DNA of 64,000 bases, taken from the NCBI RefSeq assembly GCF_019063845.1, contig NZ_CP077683.1, positions 4,084,501 through 4,148,500 on the forward strand. Direction: 5' to 3'. The notes under the pieces were generated by a model, which saw only the letters and a program-made list of their open reading frames with translations, was not told the DNA's origin and did no database searches. Positions 24,855 to 56,020 of the stretch are shown here, piece after piece (position 1 is the first letter of the stretch; every line of letters begins with the position of its first letter). The translations under genes and the position numbers were made by a program. This DNA is from Geomonas subterranea (GTDB taxonomy: Bacteria > Desulfobacterota > Desulfuromonadia > Geobacterales > Geobacteraceae).

Positions 24855-24879
24855 ACAGGTCGCTGAAAAAAAGACATAG

Positions 24880-25045
24880 ACGTTCGTCCTGGTGCCCCGA
24901 GAGGGGTTAAAAGGGAAGAGGGTGTGAATCCCTCGCTGTCCCGCAACTGTGAACGGAGATGAAAGCCGCAACAACGCCACTGATCGAATCGGGAAGGCGC
25001 GGCGAGTAAGACGACCCGTGAGTCAGGAAACCTGCCTGGATGCAA
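24880..25045 (+). ncRNA. Cobalamin riboswitch
   Basis: Contains the conserved cobalamin aptamer blocks in order: GGTGCC, TTAAAAGGGAA, GGTGTGAATCC, GCTGTCCCGCAACTGTGA, and AGTCAGGAAACCTGCC. It lies between a sigma-70-type promoter and a terminator directly before cobU, so high cobalamin should switch off cobU-cbiO. Confidence 0.95.
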
Positions 25046-25111
25046 GCTTGTTGGAACCTCCGTGGCAGAGGGGCTAAAGCCGGAATCGCGCCTGTAGTGC
25101 GAATTTTGACC

Positions 25112-35931: not shown

Positions 35932-36086
35932 ACATCCTCCTTGGCTGAATTCGGGGTAATTTATACCACACGACTTGCGCCGGGCGCAATGCGCCAACCC
36001 GCCATTTTTCTTATGAAACCCGGTCACGCGTGAGCTCATGAGATGGATCGTGAAAAGAGTTCTTTGATTAATTATAGTTAAGCTCT

Positions 36087-36115
36087 TGCAGTCTTCAGAG
36101 CGTCTCAGTATAATG
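36087..36115 (+). promoter_or_regulatory. Strong sigma-70-type promoter of candidate sRNA 1
   Basis: TTGCAG (36087-36092), exact 17-bp spacer, TATAAT (36110-36115). One of the best matches to the consensus in the window, with no gene start for 180 bp. Confidence 0.75.
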
Positions 36116-36121
36116 TGTTCA

Positions 36122-36198
36122 TAGATAAGAGTTGCGGAGGATCGTAGGATCCTCCTTCCCCTAGCCGACTTGCCCTCCTAGTCGCTAGGGTTTTTTTT
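36122..36198 (+). ncRNA. Candidate small RNA 1 (about 77 nt)
   Basis: Between the promoter at 36087 and a T8 tract at 36191-36198 there is no open reading frame with a ribosome site. The RNA would fold into GGAGGATC-gtag-GATCCTCC (36136-36155) and a terminator stem CCCTAG-c-CGACT..AGTCG-CTAGGG (36159-36190). It shares GGATCCTCCTT with candidate sRNA 2 at 55933. It could alternatively be an attenuator for the gene at 36303, but that gene has its own promoter at 36229. Confidence 0.6.
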
Positions 36199-36217
36199 GC
36201 CTCGAATTCGCTCGAAG

Positions 36218-36239
36218 TGTGCCAACTGTTGCACACTTT
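36218..36239. promoter_or_regulatory. Candidate operator A of the hydrogenase-like regulator
   Basis: TGTGCCAA-CT-GTTGCACACTTT matches operator B at 38649-38670 in 18 of 22 positions and contains AAGTGTGC/GCACACTT inverted arms. It overlaps the -35 box of the promoter at 36229, which suggests autorepression. Confidence 0.6.
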
Positions 36240-36257
36240 CCCCGATTCCTATACAAT
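36229..36257 (+). promoter_or_regulatory. Sigma-70-type promoter of the hydrogenase-like regulator
   Basis: TTGCAC (36229-36234), 17-bp spacer, TACAAT (36252-36257), about 45 bp before ATG 36303. Confidence 0.6.
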
Positions 36258-36302
36258 CCAACCTGATTCTGCGATTTTATCCGGCTGTGCCTGCGAGGAC
36301 CG

Positions 36303-37547
36303 ATGTATCCCATTGTAACCATTACCGATCAGTGCCGAAAATGCTACTCGTGCGTGCGCAGTTGCCCCGTCAAGGCGATCAAGGTGGAGAAGAGCTACAC
36401 CGAGATCATCTTCGAGCGCTGCATCGGCTGCGGCAACTGCCTGAGCAACTGCCCGCAGCATGCCAAGGTCATCGCTGACAACGTGGTGGTGACGGAGGCG
36501 CTTCTTACTTCCGGCGACCCCGTCGTCGCCGTCCTTGGCTGCTCTTTTCCTGCCTTCTTCCACAACTGCTCTCCCGGCCAGCTCTCGGCCGGCCTGCGCC
36601 AGCTCGGTTTCGCCGAGGTGCACGAGGGGGCAAGCGGCGTGGAACTTATCGCCGGAGAGTACAGAAACGCCATCGAAAAGGCGGAGTTGCCGCTCATCTC
36701 CTCCCATTGCCCCGCCGTCGTCGATCTCGTGGAGCGGCACTACCCGCAACTGATCGAAAACATGGTCGGGGTGGTGACCCACATGGTGGCCATGGGGCGC
36801 TACCTGAAGCACGTGCTGGGAGAGCAGGTCAAGGTTATCTATATAAGCTCCTGCATCGCCGGAAAGTTCGAGGTGCAGGCCGAGCAGACCAAGGGGGCGG
36901 TGGACGTGCTGCTTACCTACCGGGAGCTGGAGTCGATCTTCAAGGAGCGGGGCATCGATCTGGCCGCACTCGAGGAAGAGCCCTTCGACGGCAGGGAGCC
37001 GCACATGGGGCGTATATTCTCCCTGTCCCAGGGCTCTTTCCAGGCCTTCGGCATCAACCCCGACCCGCTCGATACCGATATCGTCACGGCCGAGGGTGAG
37101 GTCAACGTAATGGGGATCATAAAGGACCTGGCCGCCGGGCGCATCAGCCCCAAGCTGGTCGATCTCCGTTTCTGTTACGACGGCTGCATCGGCGGCCCCG
37201 GGCGCAACAAGGAACTCACCGAATTTTCCAGGCGCAACATGGTCATTTCCCATTTCAGAAGCGAGATCCCGTACCGGGTGGCGCCGCACTACCAGAAGCA
37301 ATGGGACATCGACCTCTCCCGCACTTTCTCGGACAAGTACGCGAAGCTTCCCACTCCAAAGGGGGGGGACGTAAAAAGATCCTGCACGCGACCAACAAGT
37401 TCACCCAGAAGGACGAACTCAACTGCCGCACCTGCGGCTACCGCACCTGCCGGGAGTATGCCGTGGCGGTATTCCAGGGGCTGGCGGACCTCGAGATGTG
37501 CCTGCCGCACAACCTTCAGCAGCTGGAGGAGGAGAGAGGGCGCCTGA
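36303..37547 (+). CDS. [FeFe]-hydrogenase-like sensor, N-terminal part of a split sigma-54 regulator
   Basis: Two ferredoxin-type clusters (C11/C14/C17/C21 and C40/C43/C46/C50) lead into a hydrogenase large-subunit-like domain. The four cluster cysteines are kept (SSHCP, SSCIAGKFE, and CYDGC in the L3-like motif), but the proton-transfer cysteine of TSCCP reads His. True homology ends near residue 353, at the G8 tract 37361-37368; the remaining residues to 37547 are out-of-frame (Arg/Ser/Thr-rich). A -1 shift there joins it to the frame of the next entry. The call as a sensor, not an enzyme, is inference from the fused activator. Confidence 0.8.
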   Translation: MYPIVTITDQCRKCYSCVRSCPVKAIKVEKSYTEIIFERCIGCGNCLSNCPQHAKVIADNVVVTEALLTSGDPVVAVLGCSFPAFFHNCSPGQLSAGLRQLGFAEVHEGASGVELIAGEYRNAIEKAELPLISSHCPAVVDLVERHYPQLIENMVGVVTHMVAMGRYLKHVLGEQVKVIYISSCIAGKFEVQAEQTKGAVDVLLTYRELESIFKERGIDLAALEEEPFDGREPHMGRIFSLSQGSFQAFGINPDPLDTDIVTAEGEVNVMGIIKDLAAGRISPKLVDLRFCYDGCIGGPGRNKELTEFSRRNMVISHFRSEIPYRVAPHYQKQWDIDLSRTFSDKYAKLPTPKGGDVKRSCTRPTSSPRRTNSTAAPAATAPAGSMPWRYSRGWRTSRCACRTTFSSWRRREGA

Positions 37548-38584
37548 TCCAAAAGTACGAACTGGCCAAGAGGGAGTTGGACCGGGAATACGGCGACGAG
37601 TTCATCGTGGGGAGCGACGGCAATACGCTTGAGGCCCTGGACCAGATCAAGCAGGTCGGGCCGACGCCGACCACGGTGCTGATCCGAGGCGAGTCCGGCA
37701 CCGGCAAGGAGCTCGCCGCGCGCGCCATCCACCGCTACAGCAAGAGAAACGACAAGCCGCTGGTAACCGTCAACTGCACCACCATCACCGACTCCCTGCT
37801 GGAAAGCGAACTGTTCGGCCACAAGAAGGGATCCTTCACCGGTGCCATCACCGAGAAGAAGGGCCTTTTCGAGGCGGCCGACGGCGGCACCATCTTCCTG
37901 GACGAGATCGGAGACATCACCCCGAAACTGCAGGCGGAACTGCTGCGCGTGCTCGACCTGGGGGAAGTGCGCCCGGTGGGGGGCACGATGGCGCGCCGCG
38001 TCGACGTCAGGCTCATCGCCGCCACCAACAAGTCCCTGGAGGACGGGGTGCGCGAGGGGTGGTTCCGTGAAGATCTCTATTACCGGCTCAACGTATTCTC
38101 CATCACCATGCCCCCGTTGCGTGAGCGGGTGGAATCCATCCCGCAGCTCGCCCACTACTTCCTGGAGAAGGCGCGCAACAAGCTGAACAAGCACATCGTG
38201 GGCATCGAGGAGCGCGCTATCAACGCCATGGTGAAGTACCCCTGGCCGGGGAACATCAGGGAGATGCAGAACGTCATCGAGCGCGCCGCGGTCCTCACCC
38301 ACGACGACATCATAAAGCTGGGCAACCTGCCTCTGGCGTTCGCGGAAAGCTACGCCGACGAGGGGGAGGACGTCATCGACCTGCGCTCGTTCAAAAAGGA
38401 GCGCGAACCGCACGTACTGAGGGTCGAGAAGAAGCTGATCCAGCGCTATCTGGCAGACGCCGGAGGCAATGTGTCAAAAGCGGCACAACTTGCCAACATA
38501 CCAAGAAGGACCTTTTACCGTCTTTTGGCCAAACATGGGTTGAAAGGGCGCACAATCCGTGCGCGGGAGGAAGAAGATGAGTGA
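37301..38584 (+). CDS. Sigma-54 activator, C-terminal part of the split hydrogenase-like regulator
   Basis: Genuine coding begins about 37371 (KKILHATNKF). It has a CX2CX4C..C Fe-S motif (CRTCGYRTC.. MCLP), a coiled linker, an AAA+ domain (GESGTGKE; HKKGSFTGA; IFLDEIGD) and a Fis-type helix-turn-helix (NVSKAAQLANIPRRTFYRLL). The ATG at 37301 would read about 20 unrelated residues and is probably not used. Joined to the previous entry it gives a single protein of about 760 residues. Related one-piece genes are expected in Geobacteraceae (from memory). Confidence 0.8.
   Translation: MGHRPLPHFLGQVREASHSKGGGRKKILHATNKFTQKDELNCRTCGYRTCREYAVAVFQGLADLEMCLPHNLQQLEEERGRLIQKYELAKRELDREYGDEFIVGSDGNTLEALDQIKQVGPTPTTVLIRGESGTGKELAARAIHRYSKRNDKPLVTVNCTTITDSLLESELFGHKKGSFTGAITEKKGLFEAADGGTIFLDEIGDITPKLQAELLRVLDLGEVRPVGGTMARRVDVRLIAATNKSLEDGVREGWFREDLYYRLNVFSITMPPLRERVESIPQLAHYFLEKARNKLNKHIVGIEERAINAMVKYPWPGNIREMQNVIERAAVLTHDDIIKLGNLPLAFAESYADEGEDVIDLRSFKKEREPHVLRVEKKLIQRYLADAGGNVSKAAQLANIPRRTFYRLLAKHGLKGRTIRAREEEDE
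37361..37368 (+). other. G8 tract at the frame change (possible -1 slippery site)
   Basis: In the upstream frame the codons read AAG GGG GGG GAC, so the heptamer G-GGG-GGG is in the right phase for -1 slippage, and -1 is exactly the shift needed. A missing G in the sequence (G9 to G8) would look the same. Confidence 0.6.
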
Positions 38585-38648
38585 TTTGCCACATGGCGGG
38601 GAGTGCCACCCCGGCCAAAATGATACAAATGGGCACAATTACGCACTC

Positions 38649-38670
38649 TGTGCCAAAAGTGGCGCACTTT
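38649..38670. promoter_or_regulatory. Candidate operator B (enhancer of the ribbon-helix-helix gene)
   Basis: TGTGCCAA-AA-GTGGCGCACTTT, 18/22 identical to operator A at 36218. It lies about 100 bp upstream of the sigma-54 promoter at 38763, a normal enhancer distance. A weaker related half-site (GGGCACAATTACGCACTCT) is at about 38631-38649. Confidence 0.6.
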
Positions 38671-38762
38671 GTATACACTGTTGGGTTATAGGGCTTTAAC
38701 GTGAATTAAACGGTATACGTGAAAACAGCAGGTTACGCCGCAGGACTGTTCTTTTTTGGGGT

Positions 38763-38778
38763 TGGCACGCATATAGCA
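38763..38778 (+). promoter_or_regulatory. Sigma-54 promoter of the ribbon-helix-helix gene
   Basis: TGGCACG-N4-TAGCA: perfect -24 element, correct spacing, one mismatch (TAGC for TTGC) in the -12 element. Predicted start about 38789. Confidence 0.7.
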
Positions 38779-38830
38779 ATATTGTAGACATCGTGTCACC
38801 AATCTTGAGCAGTACAAGGAGAAGAAGCAG

Positions 38831-39010
38831 ATGGGCAGAATGAGAGAGAACCCCAGGTACAATGTCATTTCCATGAGGATCAGCGACGCAGAGCGTGAGA
38901 CCCTCGAAGCAATCATGGACTCCACCAAGAAAAGCGTTTCCGACATCATGAGGGAAGCGATGGAACTCGTGAAGGCGAGAAGCGCTGAGCTGAACCAGAA
39001 GGCGGCCTAG
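38831..39010 (+). CDS. Small ribbon-helix-helix DNA-binding protein
   Basis: 59 residues: a short basic N-terminus, a strand (NVISMRIS), then two helices (DAERETLEAIMDST, VSDIMREAMELVKARS) in the CopG/Arc pattern. AAGGAG lies 9 nt upstream of ATG 38831. It is the only gene behind the sigma-54 promoter and ends at a strong terminator. Probable target of the hydrogenase-like activator; its own targets are unknown. Confidence 0.8.
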   Translation: MGRMRENPRYNVISMRISDAERETLEAIMDSTKKSVSDIMREAMELVKARSAELNQKAA

Positions 39011-39038: not shown

Positions 39039-39068
39039 AAAAACGGCCGCGTTAAGCGGCCTTTTTTT
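39039..39068. terminator. Bidirectional terminator
   Basis: GGCCGC-gttaa-GCGGCC with As before (39038-39043) and seven Ts after (39062-39068). A further palindrome GGCGGCC-TA-GGCCGCC overlaps the end of the ribbon-helix-helix gene. Confidence 0.88.
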
Positions 39069-39100: not shown

Positions 39101-40543
39101 CTACTTCACCGACCAGGTGGTCCCTTCCTTGCCGTCCAAAAGGACGATGTTCTTAGCGAGCAGCAGGTCCCTGATCTCGTCGCTGCGCTTAAAGTCCTTC
39201 GCCTTCCGGGCCTCGGCGCGCTCGGCTATCAAAGCCTCTATTTCCTCAACCGGAATTTCCATATCCGAGGTCTTGCGGTCCTTCATACGCTGCATGAACT
39301 CCACGGGCACCGAGTCGCACACCCCGAGGGTCGTCGCGATGTTGGCGACTTCCCGCTTCACGCGCGCGAGCAGTTCCAGCGGCGAGACCGGCAGGGCGCG
39401 GTTGATGCTGCGCACAAGGTCGAAGACGTGCCCGAGCGCCATGGCGGTGTTGAAGTCATCATCCATCGCCTCGGTGAAGCGGGCTCCGATGCTGCCGCAC
39501 TTCTCCTCCAGTTCTGCGCTCTCCTCGGTGGCGGCGTGGTCGGTCCCGGCCGCCAGGCGCTCGTCGATCCCCGCCAGTGCCTTGTAGATCCTTTCCAGGC
39601 CTAGCTCCGCTTCCTTGAGGTTCTGGTCCGAGAAGTCGATCGGGGAGCGGTAGTGCGCCGAAAGCAGGAAGAAGCGGAGCACCTCGGCGTCGTAACGCTC
39701 CAGCACGTCCTTGATGGTGAAGAAGTTGCCGAGCGACTTGGACATCTTTTCGGAGTTGATGTTCACGAAGCCGTTGTGCAGCCAGTACTTGACGAAAGGC
39801 TTGCCGGACGCAGCCTCGGACTGGGCTATTTCATTCTCGTGGTGCGGGAAGATGAGGTCTTTCCCCCCGCCGTGGATGTCGAGGGTATCGCCCAGGAACT
39901 TGGTGCTCATGGCGGAGCACTCGATGTGCCAGCCGGGCCTGCCGTGGCCCCAGGGGGATTCCCAGTACGGCTCGCCCGGCTTGGCGCCCTTCCAGAGCGC
40001 GAAGTCCATCGGGTGCTCTTTCTTCTCGTCCACCTCGATGCGGGCCCCTGCCTGCATGTCCTCGAGGTTCCTCTTGGAGAGTTTCAGGTACCCCTCGAAG
40101 CGGTCCACCCGGAAGAAGACGTCGGAGCCGGACGCGTAGGCGTACCCTTTGTCGATCAGCCTCTGCACCAGCGCGATGATCTCCGGGATATGCTCGGTCG
40201 CCTTGGGCTGGAAGGTGGGGAGCTGCAGCATGAGCCGCGCCATGTCCTTGTCGAACTCCTCGATGAAGCGCTCGGAGATCTCGTTGTAGGGGACGCCGTC
40301 GCGGTTGGCGCGGTTGATGATCTTGTCGTCGATGTCGGTGTAGTTGCGGACGTAGGTGACGTCGAGCCCCTTGGCCTGCAGGTAGCGGTAGATCATGTCG
40401 AAGACGACGTTCGCGCGGGCGTGCCCGATGTGGCAGTGGTCGTAAACCGTTACGCCGCAGACGTACATGCCGACCTTGCCGGGGTTGATCGGTACGAATT
40501 CTTCCTTGCTGCCCGTAAGGGTGTTGTAGACGCGTAAAGCCAT
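39101..40543 (-). CDS. cysS: Cysteinyl-tRNA synthetase
   Basis: 480-residue class I synthetase. N-terminal [18 protein letters not shown] (HIGH motif and zinc cysteine) and the KMSKS loop ([12 protein letters not shown]). Full family length. AGAGGA is upstream of the ATG at 40543. Confidence 0.97.
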
Positions 40544-45700: not shown

Positions 45701-46393
45701 TTACAGATCGAGCCCTTTGCAGGTCCATGCTTCAGCGGCGGCGGCGTCTTCCTCGATCAGCACCTTGCCGCCATACTCGGCATTTTTCTGCACCAGCATC
45801 TCGGCCATGACCGGATCACGCTTGCGGAAAGCCTCGATGATCTTCTCGTGTTCCTCCACCGAGAGCTGCATCCGGCCCGGCTTCATGAGCGACGCCAGGC
45901 GCAGCCGCTGGAACTTCTTCAGCAACTGGGCGATCATGTCGTGCAGCTTGTCGTTGCCGGCTCCCTTGATGAAGAGGTCGTGGAAGCTGTTGTGTACCTT
46001 GAAGAAATGACGTACGTCGCCTTCCTCCGCGATCTCGCGCAACTTCTCGTTGATCGCTTCCAGCTTGTTTATCTCCCTGGTGCTGAGCAGGCTGCAGGCC
46101 TTGCGGGCGGCGTAGCCTTCAAGAATGCTCTTTATGGCGTAGAACTCTTCGACGTCTTTCGCGGAGAAACTGGCGACCAGCGCCCCTTTGCGCGGTATGA
46201 CGGAAAGGTACCCTTCGGATTCCAACTGGCGGAACGCTTCGCGGATGGGGGTGCGGCTGATGCCGAAACGGGCTGCGAGTTCGGGTTCAGCTACCTTTTC
46301 TCCCGGCTTGAGGGCTCCTGACATGATGGCATCGCGGATCGTCTCAAGTATCCGTTCTCTAAGGGTAAGGTGCTTCTCGACATTCTTCTTCAT
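45701..46393 (-). CDS. GntR-family regulator, FCD (FadR C-terminal) type
   Basis: 230 residues: winged helix (LRERILETIRDAIMSGALKPG, FGISRTPIREAFRQLESEG) and an all-helical FCD ligand domain (YAIKSILEGYAARKA; HNSFHDLFIKGAGN). I chose ATG 46393 with AAGGGGG upstream. Ligand unknown; FCD regulators usually sense organic acids. Confidence 0.9.
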   Translation of the reverse strand: MKKNVEKHLTLRERILETIRDAIMSGALKPGEKVAEPELAARFGISRTPIREAFRQLESEGYLSVIPRKGALVASFSAKDVEEFYAIKSILEGYAARKACSLLSTREINKLEAINEKLREIAEEGDVRHFFKVHNSFHDLFIKGAGNDKLHDMIAQLLKKFQRLRLASLMKPGRMQLSVEEHEKIIEAFRKRDPVMAEMLVQKNAEYGGKVLIEEDAAAAEAWTCKGLDL

Positions 46394-46416
46394 GCGGCCC
46401 CCTTCAATGATCGCCG

Positions 46417-46445
46417 TATTGTATACAGTATCCAAAGATTGTCAA
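46417..46445 (-). promoter_or_regulatory. GntR promoter with overlapping GTATAC operator
   Basis: On the - strand TTGACA (46440-46445), 16-bp spacer, TACAAT (46418-46423). A near-palindrome TATTGTATACAGTA (46417-46430) covers the -10 box. FCD-type GntR proteins bind TTGTATACAA-like sites, so autorepression is likely. Confidence 0.65.
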
Positions 46446-55573: not shown

Positions 55574-55906
55574 TTGTAGCAGGCTGGGGCAATGGGGGCG
55601 ACCTCCCTCTCCCTCCGGGAGATGGCCGGGGTGAGGGTGCGGCCACCATTTCCCAGGAGGAGAGTGGGACGCCGGTCAGGAGCGACGACACGGGGATGGC
55701 GGAATTTTGACACCTGTGCAAAGTTTGAACTGCTGCTCAAAATGTGAAAGTCCTTGATTCTATGCTGTTTTCAGCGCAATCGGCGGGCGGGGAGCGGCTT
55801 CGCTGTTCAACCGCTGAGTCGGCAGGACGGGACGGTCATCGCCAGGATCTCTCTCAAAACCGTGTAAAATCGGTACGTTGAAAAAAATTTGAGCTGCCGG
55901 TGGGTT
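55574..55906. other. Intergenic region with partial family-1 repeat
   Basis: No gene. A partial repeat (CCCTCTCCCTCCGGGAGATGG, 55605-55625) lies near the start. Two TCAAAAT/TTTGA-like half-dyads (about 55706-55747) are upstream of the sRNA 2 promoter and loosely resemble the flagellar enhancer dyads. Confidence 0.4.
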
Positions 55907-55922
55907 TGGCACCGCTCTTGTA
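55907..55922 (+). promoter_or_regulatory. Sigma-54-like promoter of candidate sRNA 2
   Basis: TGGCACC-N4-TTGTA: correct spacing, -24 element good, but the conserved -12 GC reads GT. Plausible, not strong. Confidence 0.45.
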
Positions 55923-55932
55923 TTAATGAAAG

Positions 55933-56020
55933 ACAAAGCGGCACTGCAGATGCCGCTTGCCAGAAAACCCAACTTTTGCGCCGATGATGGATCCTCCTTT
56001 TCCTCTCGGCGCTTTTTTTT
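55933..56020 (+). ncRNA. Candidate small RNA 2 (about 88 nt)
   Basis: From the sigma-54-like start to a T8 tract at 56013-56020. Stem 1 AAGCGGCA-ctgcaga-TGCCGCTT (55936-55958); terminator stem GCGCCGA..TCGGCGC (55978-56012) whose loop carries GGATCCTCCTTTTCC. That motif matches candidate sRNA 1 (36147-36161) at 13 of 15 bases and resembles the 16S rRNA 3' tail. Confidence 0.55.

Follow-up and report, generated by a model that had tools for sequence, protein, structure and literature searches.

The stretch analysed here, called the window below, is 64,000 nucleotides of the Geomonas subterranea contig NZ_CP077683.1. The system of concern is a gene for a sigma-54 enhancer-binding protein (EBP) with a hydrogenase-like sensor, hereafter the regulator, together with a small ribbon-helix-helix (RHH) gene directly after it. 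The features of the locus are as follows, in window coordinates.

36218-36235 (+): predicted operator O1, TGTGCCA-N4-TTGCACA, within a wider 8+8 inverted repeat at 36215-36238
36229-36257 (+): regulator promoter, -35 TTGCAC (36229-36234) inside O1, 17 nt, -10 TACAAT (36252-36257)
36303-37380 (+): 5' part of the regulator, 2x[4Fe-4S] ferredoxin-like and Fe_hyd_lg_C domains, from Pfam and invariant Cys
37355-37385 (+): G8/A5 stretch that is 1 nt shorter than in relatives, which breaks the frame
37361-38584 (+): 3' part of the regulator, FeS domain (PF04060), sigma-54 AAA+ domain with a GSFTGA loop (by eye) and HTH_8, from Pfam
38649-38666 (+): predicted operator and upstream activator sequence (UAS) O2, TGTGCCAAAAGTGGCGCA
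38763-38778 (+): sigma-54 promoter, TGGCACGCATATAGCA, with a putative start site near 38789
38831-39010 (+): open reading frame (ORF) of a 59-aa RHH protein of the HgtR family, assigned from an RHH_1 match below cut-off, an hgtR-labelled homologue and Leang 2009
39039-39066 (+): terminator-like hairpin and T-run 3' of the RHH gene, read from the sequence

An earlier note on this DNA had reported a shared 22-bp motif at 36218-36239 and 38649-38670. The coordinates are right and the copies differ at 4 of 22 bases; the core of both is the dyad TGTGCCA-N4-T(T/G)GCACA. In a whole-genome scan allowing up to 3 mismatches the motif matches at these two places only, and a reversed control pattern gave 1 forward and 1 reverse match. 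A wide regulon of near-perfect dyads (at most 1 mismatch to TGTGCCA-N4-TGGCACA) was rejected, the genome matches listed being O1 and O2 plus a repeat, TGTGCCAGGTCTGCCACA, that occurs twice here and is also present elsewhere in the genus.

Is the pair of sites kept in relatives? To this end, the order sample consisted of 141 Geobacterales genomes and the outside sample of 136 other genomes of the class. The regulator was found in 122 of the 141 at E<=1e-40, and 119 remain when G040, G044 and G046, which hold 28-29% relatives of another kind, are removed. Loci were fetched for 60 regulator-bearing relatives besides the window, and for 20 genomes outside the order; dyad and promoter counts within the order refer to 60 loci, without G121. 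Alignment A4, which has one wrong row (L161), served only for a hairpin list. Allowing at most 1 mismatch, 16 of the 19 genus genomes carry the exact 22-mer twice, 1 carries it once and 2 do not have it; in other genera it is present once in 2 genomes and missing from 27 of 29. A relaxed dyad was then scored with a threshold of at least 11 of 13, O1 being searched in the 200 nt upstream of the regulator. It is present as O1 in 59/60 loci, as O2 in 59/60 and as both in 58/60. The O1 miss (G010) has its dyad about 240 bp upstream, beyond the searched region, and the O2 miss (G116) scores 10. In first-order resamples, which served as randomised controls for the dyads and GTATAC elements of the order, a score of at least 11 was reached in 6 of 1200 upstream regions, and the score of the locus itself in 20/1200 for O1 and 1/1200 for O2. 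Thus the conservation near orthologues that the earlier note had proposed to check is seen across the order for the dyad, while the exact 22-mer is largely confined to the genus. Position 13 of the dyad, which gives the -35 TTG in O1, is T, G or other in 56, 3 and 1 loci for O1 and in 6, 53 and 1 for O2. This suggests that two copies of one operator differ where one of them doubles as a promoter. O2 starts 101-117 bp ahead of the picked sigma-54 promoter in 57 of 60 loci; the distance is 369 bp in G028 and 142 bp in G055, and in G034 the pick overlaps O2, apparently a wrong promoter. In the G028 locus (L116) the RHH gene is preceded by a pair of O2-like dyads, one 369 bp from the promoter and another nearer to it. 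As far as our literature searches reach, within the passages they returned, no account of the operator pair was found.

The promoters agree with the layout that had been proposed. The left site lies over the -35 box of the regulator promoter, and TTGCAC-17-TANNNT stands ahead of the regulator in 51/60 loci. The right site had been placed about 100 bp before a sigma-54 promoter, and O2 indeed starts 114 bp ahead of it; the promoter reads TGGCACG-N4-TAGCA, of the GG-N10-GC type, and such a promoter was picked in 60/60 loci, the G034 pick being seemingly wrong. In 60/61 inspected loci the RHH gene comes after the regulator. Beyond its terminator-like hairpin lies a convergent 480-aa ORF (39101-40543), which we take by eye to be cysteinyl-tRNA synthetase. 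Because of this hairpin and the convergent ORF, the RHH gene looks monocistronic, in line with the claim that the sigma-54 promoter serves one 59-aa RHH gene.

The regulator itself has the parts of an EBP. Its EBP domains are above Pfam cut-offs, with Walker A and a G[AS]FTGA loop in the AAA+ domain (PF00158) and with HTH_8, and the dyad to which it would bind lies upstream of the GG-N10-GC promoter (59/60 and 60/60 loci, respectively). The recognition-helix motif PRR[TS][FL]YR is shared by 77 of the 81 proteins compared; the frames of the window and of G116 end early. The AAA+ domain, the GAFTGA-type loop and a UAS before a sigma-54 promoter are shared with Fis-type helix-turn-helix activators of the NifA, NorR and FhlA kind, but the regulator differs from them in its iron-hydrogenase-like sensor, and the NCBIfam rows for its two halves are all below cut-offs. 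When named genome contigs were scanned with generic AAA+ peptides, one full-length relative appeared among 80 loci. An AlphaFold model of the regulator of a relative has a mean predicted local distance difference test score of 59.

What is the target? By likeness and layout it is very probably HgtR (GSU3364 of G. sulfurreducens). A homologue labelled hgtR (P0272) is 83% identical to the window RHH protein over 48 residues. For GSU3364 a predicted RpoN promoter and an EBP gene upstream have been described (Leang 2009), and the window likewise has an RpoN promoter beside an EBP gene; the passages of that account make no mention of an operator, autorepression or sensor residues, and GSU3363, the locus number presumed for this EBP, does not occur in the papers searched. 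The match of the window protein to RHH_1 (PF01402) is 15.8 bits, below the cut-off of 20.5, and a few homologue rows carry PF01402. The RHH gene was found in 138/141 genomes of the order at E<=0.001 and in 134/141 at E<=1e-9; outside the order it was found in 0/136 at E<=1e-9, the threshold used there. Passages of three papers, all citing Ueki and Lovley 2010 for HgtR, describe it as hydrogen-induced and lowering citrate synthase (PMC7894505), as downregulating gltA, atpG and nuoA and being a master regulator of Geobacter central metabolism (PMC7726332), and as a route by which hydrogen could repress acetate metabolism (PMC8691401). The target, its RpoN promoter and the neighbouring activator gene are already published. 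The operator pair, the distribution of the RHH gene, the sensor reading and the output swap discussed below are new within the literature passages searched, in which the signal protein switching on HgtR goes unnamed beyond the activator gene upstream.

We consider it likely that this iron-sulphur (Fe-S) sigma-54 activator represses its own gene at O1 and activates hgtR from O2. The EBP would bind TGTGCCA-N4-TGGCACA through its Fis-type C-terminal helix-turn-helix. At O1, which contains the -35 box of the sigma-70 promoter for the regulator gene, binding would exclude polymerase and keep the regulator level low. When the sensor permits, the EBP at O2 would serve as an upstream activator about 114 bp from the sigma-54 promoter and turn on hgtR alone; HgtR, hydrogen-induced in G. 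sulfurreducens according to those papers, would then restrain citrate synthase and other energy genes. The sensor would read redox or iron-sulphur status through [4Fe-4S] clusters. A self-repressing activator with a single target had been expected in the earlier note: the layout holds across the order with near-fixed spacing, while the single fixed target does not hold outside it. Might O1 and O2 be sites of some other factor, the EBP being merely adjacent? By eye a degenerate dyad does stand before some RHH genes in genomes without the regulator, but in two distinct arrangements of the locus the dyads accompany the regulator, and we regard this explanation as improbable.

Several points weigh against the autorepressing activator of hgtR. 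G121 has the regulator without an adjacent RHH gene. The HgtR identity rests on one database label and the matching layout. Eleven genomes of families f1 and f2 without the regulator keep the RHH gene, directly after the atoC RNA described below; in the 8 of these loci that were viewed, a sigma-54-like promoter is still recognisable by eye, so that either the RHH gene is silent in them or a different activator acts on it. Finally, the regulator gene of the window is itself frameshifted. It is not one ORF: next to eight consecutive G it has GACGTAAAAAGATCC, a base shorter than the GACGTCAAGAAGATCC of relatives. The circuit may thus be broken in this genome, unless the base is a sequencing error.

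Is the frameshift a mutation or a sequencing slip? It may be either. The deletion is in none of 18 other genus members read. A single frame of 754-772 aa is present in 59/60 relatives in the order (G116 stops at 570) and one of 756-771 aa in 20/20 loci outside it, and a programmed frameshift was rejected on these grounds. A decaying circuit in this strain, in which the 3' ORF might yield an activator that is truncated and constitutive, is a real but lesser possibility. In its favour, the regulator is the only one to change frame among 42 ORFs of relative G021 with >80% identity to the window (ORFs of at least 120 aa from 40 kb, some possibly non-coding); four others of the 42 gave shorter single matches with frame unchanged. 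On the other hand, the deletion lies beside an eight-G run, where sequencing slips are, as general knowledge has it, common, and the RHH proteins of the window and G013 are 100% identical. The frameshift, like the atoC RNA upstream and the probable identity of the target with a known repressor, was absent from the earlier note.

There is a further question of concern, what does the sensor read? The earlier note had proposed that the activator, with its Fe-S and H-cluster-like domains, may sense H2, redox or CO. Among 25 aligned proteins 16 Cys are invariant, 8 in the ferredoxin part, 4 in the H-domain and 4 in the FeS domain, and the H-cluster cubane Cys C136, C184, C291 and C295 are kept in 25/25. 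The di-iron pocket is not kept. Compared with solved hydrogenases, the equivalents of M353, K358 and M497 are S, G or A, and R in 81/81 proteins (20 from outside the order and 61 from within it, counting that of the window; six motifs missed by the search pattern, five L1 and one L2, were read by eye), and that of the proton-transfer Cys C299 is H in 80/81 and Q in 1/81. We take the residue numbering (M353, K358, M497) to be that of CpI. HydF is above cut-off in 14 of the 141 order genomes: in 3/119 with the regulator (G005, G038, G120), leaving 116/119 where it is not, versus 11/22 without it (Fisher 3e-8, a value that overstates independence because the genomes are related). These counts refer to the order only and to HydF taken alone, without HydE and HydG, and some genomes are incomplete; G045 has a partial HydF match below cut-off. 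The replaced pocket residues together with HydF being mostly not found argue against an H-cluster and for Fe-S or redox sensing. Thus the sensor, judged from its residues, most likely reads redox state or iron-sulphur status via [4Fe-4S] clusters, rather than H2 at an H-cluster. Three HydF-positive genomes (L384, L385, L386) encode, on the stretch that holds the HydF-type gene, an H-domain protein of 585-587 aa.

Two other readings of the sensor have to be weighed. One is that the H-domain carries a real H-cluster and senses H2 directly, as sensory [FeFe] hydrogenases of groups C and D do (TmHydS, TamHydS). The order of F-domain, H-domain and C-terminal FeS cluster is as in those proteins (PMC13104023), the four cluster Cys are invariant, and the target HgtR is said to be hydrogen-induced. 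However, the regulator differs from groups C and D in its AAA+ sigma-54 output, where theirs is PAS or none, as well as in its changed pocket and the scarcity of HydF; in G046 and G040 a 586-587 aa H-domain protein within 10 kb of a HydF-type gene keeps, by eye, the Lys that the EBP is without. We hold direct H2 sensing to be very unlikely. The hydrogen link of the proposed sensing role stands only indirectly, through the induction of the target family by hydrogen (PMC7894505). The other reading is that the activator answers O2, NO or iron-sulphur status instead of hydrogen-linked redox, H2 inducing HgtR by another route. The 16 invariant Cys are consistent with it, Fe-S clusters are O2, NO or stress sensors in other systems (PMC13104023), and HgtR is up under Co(II) stress (PMC7726332), in the passages of these papers; we rate it unlikely, although clearly less so than direct H2 sensing.

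A small RNA motif lies just upstream of the regulator.

36086-36114 (+): sigma-70-type promoter of the atoC RNA, TTGCAG-17-TATAAT, read from the sequence
36107-36197 (+): atoC RNA (RF01733), two stem-loops and its own terminator, Rfam 73.1 bits against a cut-off of 50

The fold z score is -4.1 for 36118-36198, and -10-like boxes stand ahead of most aligned copies (by eye). The motif is listed as probably cis-regulatory (Weinberg 2010), and Rfam lists it as cis-regulatory. Does it then control the regulator in cis? It has its own terminator, copies in the family f4 loci read lie away from the regulator, and in 11/11 f1/f2 genomes that have RHH and atoC, and in which the regulator was not found, it stands directly before the RHH gene. 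Where f1 and f3 genomes have both, it is within about 300 bp before the regulator in 46/48 (exceptions G054, G055); in G062 (f3) it is on another contig. So, in contrast to that listing, the atoC RNA is not beside the regulator in many genomes. Its own promoter-like boxes and terminator let it be read as a separate RNA, and it is probably a small RNA outside the regulator mRNA.

What takes the place of the RHH gene outside the order? Regulator relatives are present in 87/136 outside genomes at E<=1e-60 (205 less the 118 of the order). No RHH gene follows them in 20/20 outside loci, where tblastn gave chance matches only (E 0.63 and 0.89 in two). All 20 loci have instead a sigma-54-type promoter followed by 87-110 nt that close with a terminator whose loop is C/U-rich. 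In 20/20, one or more dyads scoring at least 11/14 lie within 280 bp upstream of the putative start, and in 16/20 TTGAC stands 9-10 nt before the operator, both counts standing without a randomised or shuffled control. The latter spacing suggests that the operator occupies the spacer of the promoter, a different arrangement in which the promoter would be blocked all the same. Across the 20 putative transcripts there is a single closed ORF of at least 12 codons (G232, 14 aa). Pairing in the terminal helix is 96%, and 4 of its pairs have changed on both sides, a count attained in 3 of 500 shuffles. In 8 of these loci Rfam gave nothing over threshold for the roughly 95-nt RNA, atoC included.

A further count comes from RNA model R1, built from 20 of the 85 outside genomes that it matches at E<=1e-5 (85/136; 96/136 at E<=0.01). 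Inside the order it matches 11/141 genomes, 4.2e-4 at best. It is found in 82/87 outside genomes with the regulator versus 14/49 without; the five misses all belong to f21, a family with weak regulator matches. In 32/32 outside genomes with both positions listed, the distance from the regulator start to the RNA is 2465-2691 bp and the two share a strand. It would be made, and made from that sigma-54 promoter, much as other EBP-driven RNAs are, such as the quorum regulatory RNA of Vibrio fischeri and CrcZ of Azotobacter in the passages describing them, from which it differs in having no Rfam match in the 8 loci. Run over 37 chosen sources, R1 met atoC copies at E 0.76-6.4 only, yet of the 8 places that it marks in 279 kb, 5 are such copies. 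This is weakly suggestive of homology with atoC, and a shared terminator shape may explain the likeness.

Thus the same activator, with similar operators and a seemingly self-blocking promoter, appears to have a protein repressor as its output within the order, and in other orders a small RNA. The latter is the more widespread of the two, which suggests that the RNA output may have come first. Our tentative scenario, to which we give somewhat less than an even chance, is that the Fe-S switch exchanged a roughly 95-nt sigma-54 RNA with a pyrimidine-rich loop for HgtR at the base of Geobacterales, that the H-domain reads hydrogen-dependent reduction without an H-cluster, and that atoC, whose terminator and loop are laid out similarly, may be the displaced descendant of this RNA. 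If true, post-transcriptional control was exchanged for transcriptional control with the same sensor and operators. The case would offer an unchanged regulator whose output moved between small RNA and protein repressor, in one direction or the other, as well as a hydrogenase-like sensor seemingly working without the hydrogenase cofactor; for HgtR it names a candidate switch, with two predicted binding sites and a testable sensor.

Between O2 and the sigma-54 promoter lie two further elements.

38671-38676 (+): GTATAC element 1, a candidate second operator for HgtR itself or a GntR-type regulator
38713-38718 (+): GTATAC element 2, 42 bp from element 1

Such elements are found at 48/60 RHH loci with the regulator (4.0 expected) and at 3/10 without it (0.4 expected), and at 0/20 small-RNA loci, where only 0.2 would be expected. 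They lie at near-fixed distances from O2 or the start site. In the window there is also a GntR/FCD regulator gene (45701-46435, -) whose start bears TTGTATACAGTATCC, which makes a GntR factor possible as the GTATAC binder.

Elsewhere in the window, at 55905-56019 (+), another sigma-54-like promoter, TGGCACCGCTCTTGT, precedes a stretch that resembles a short RNA, its terminator loop being rich in C and U. R1 matches this stretch at E 0.00029, and the whole-genome R1 search lists none for the window genome at E<=0.01. A TGGCACCGCTCTTGT-type promoter is directly upstream in 5 of 8 fetched relatives, about 18-20 kb from the regulator, and some relatives have a TTTGAAC-N4-GTTCAAA-like repeat upstream of this type of stretch. 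A cobalamin riboswitch is present at 24873-25053 (+), with 121 bits.

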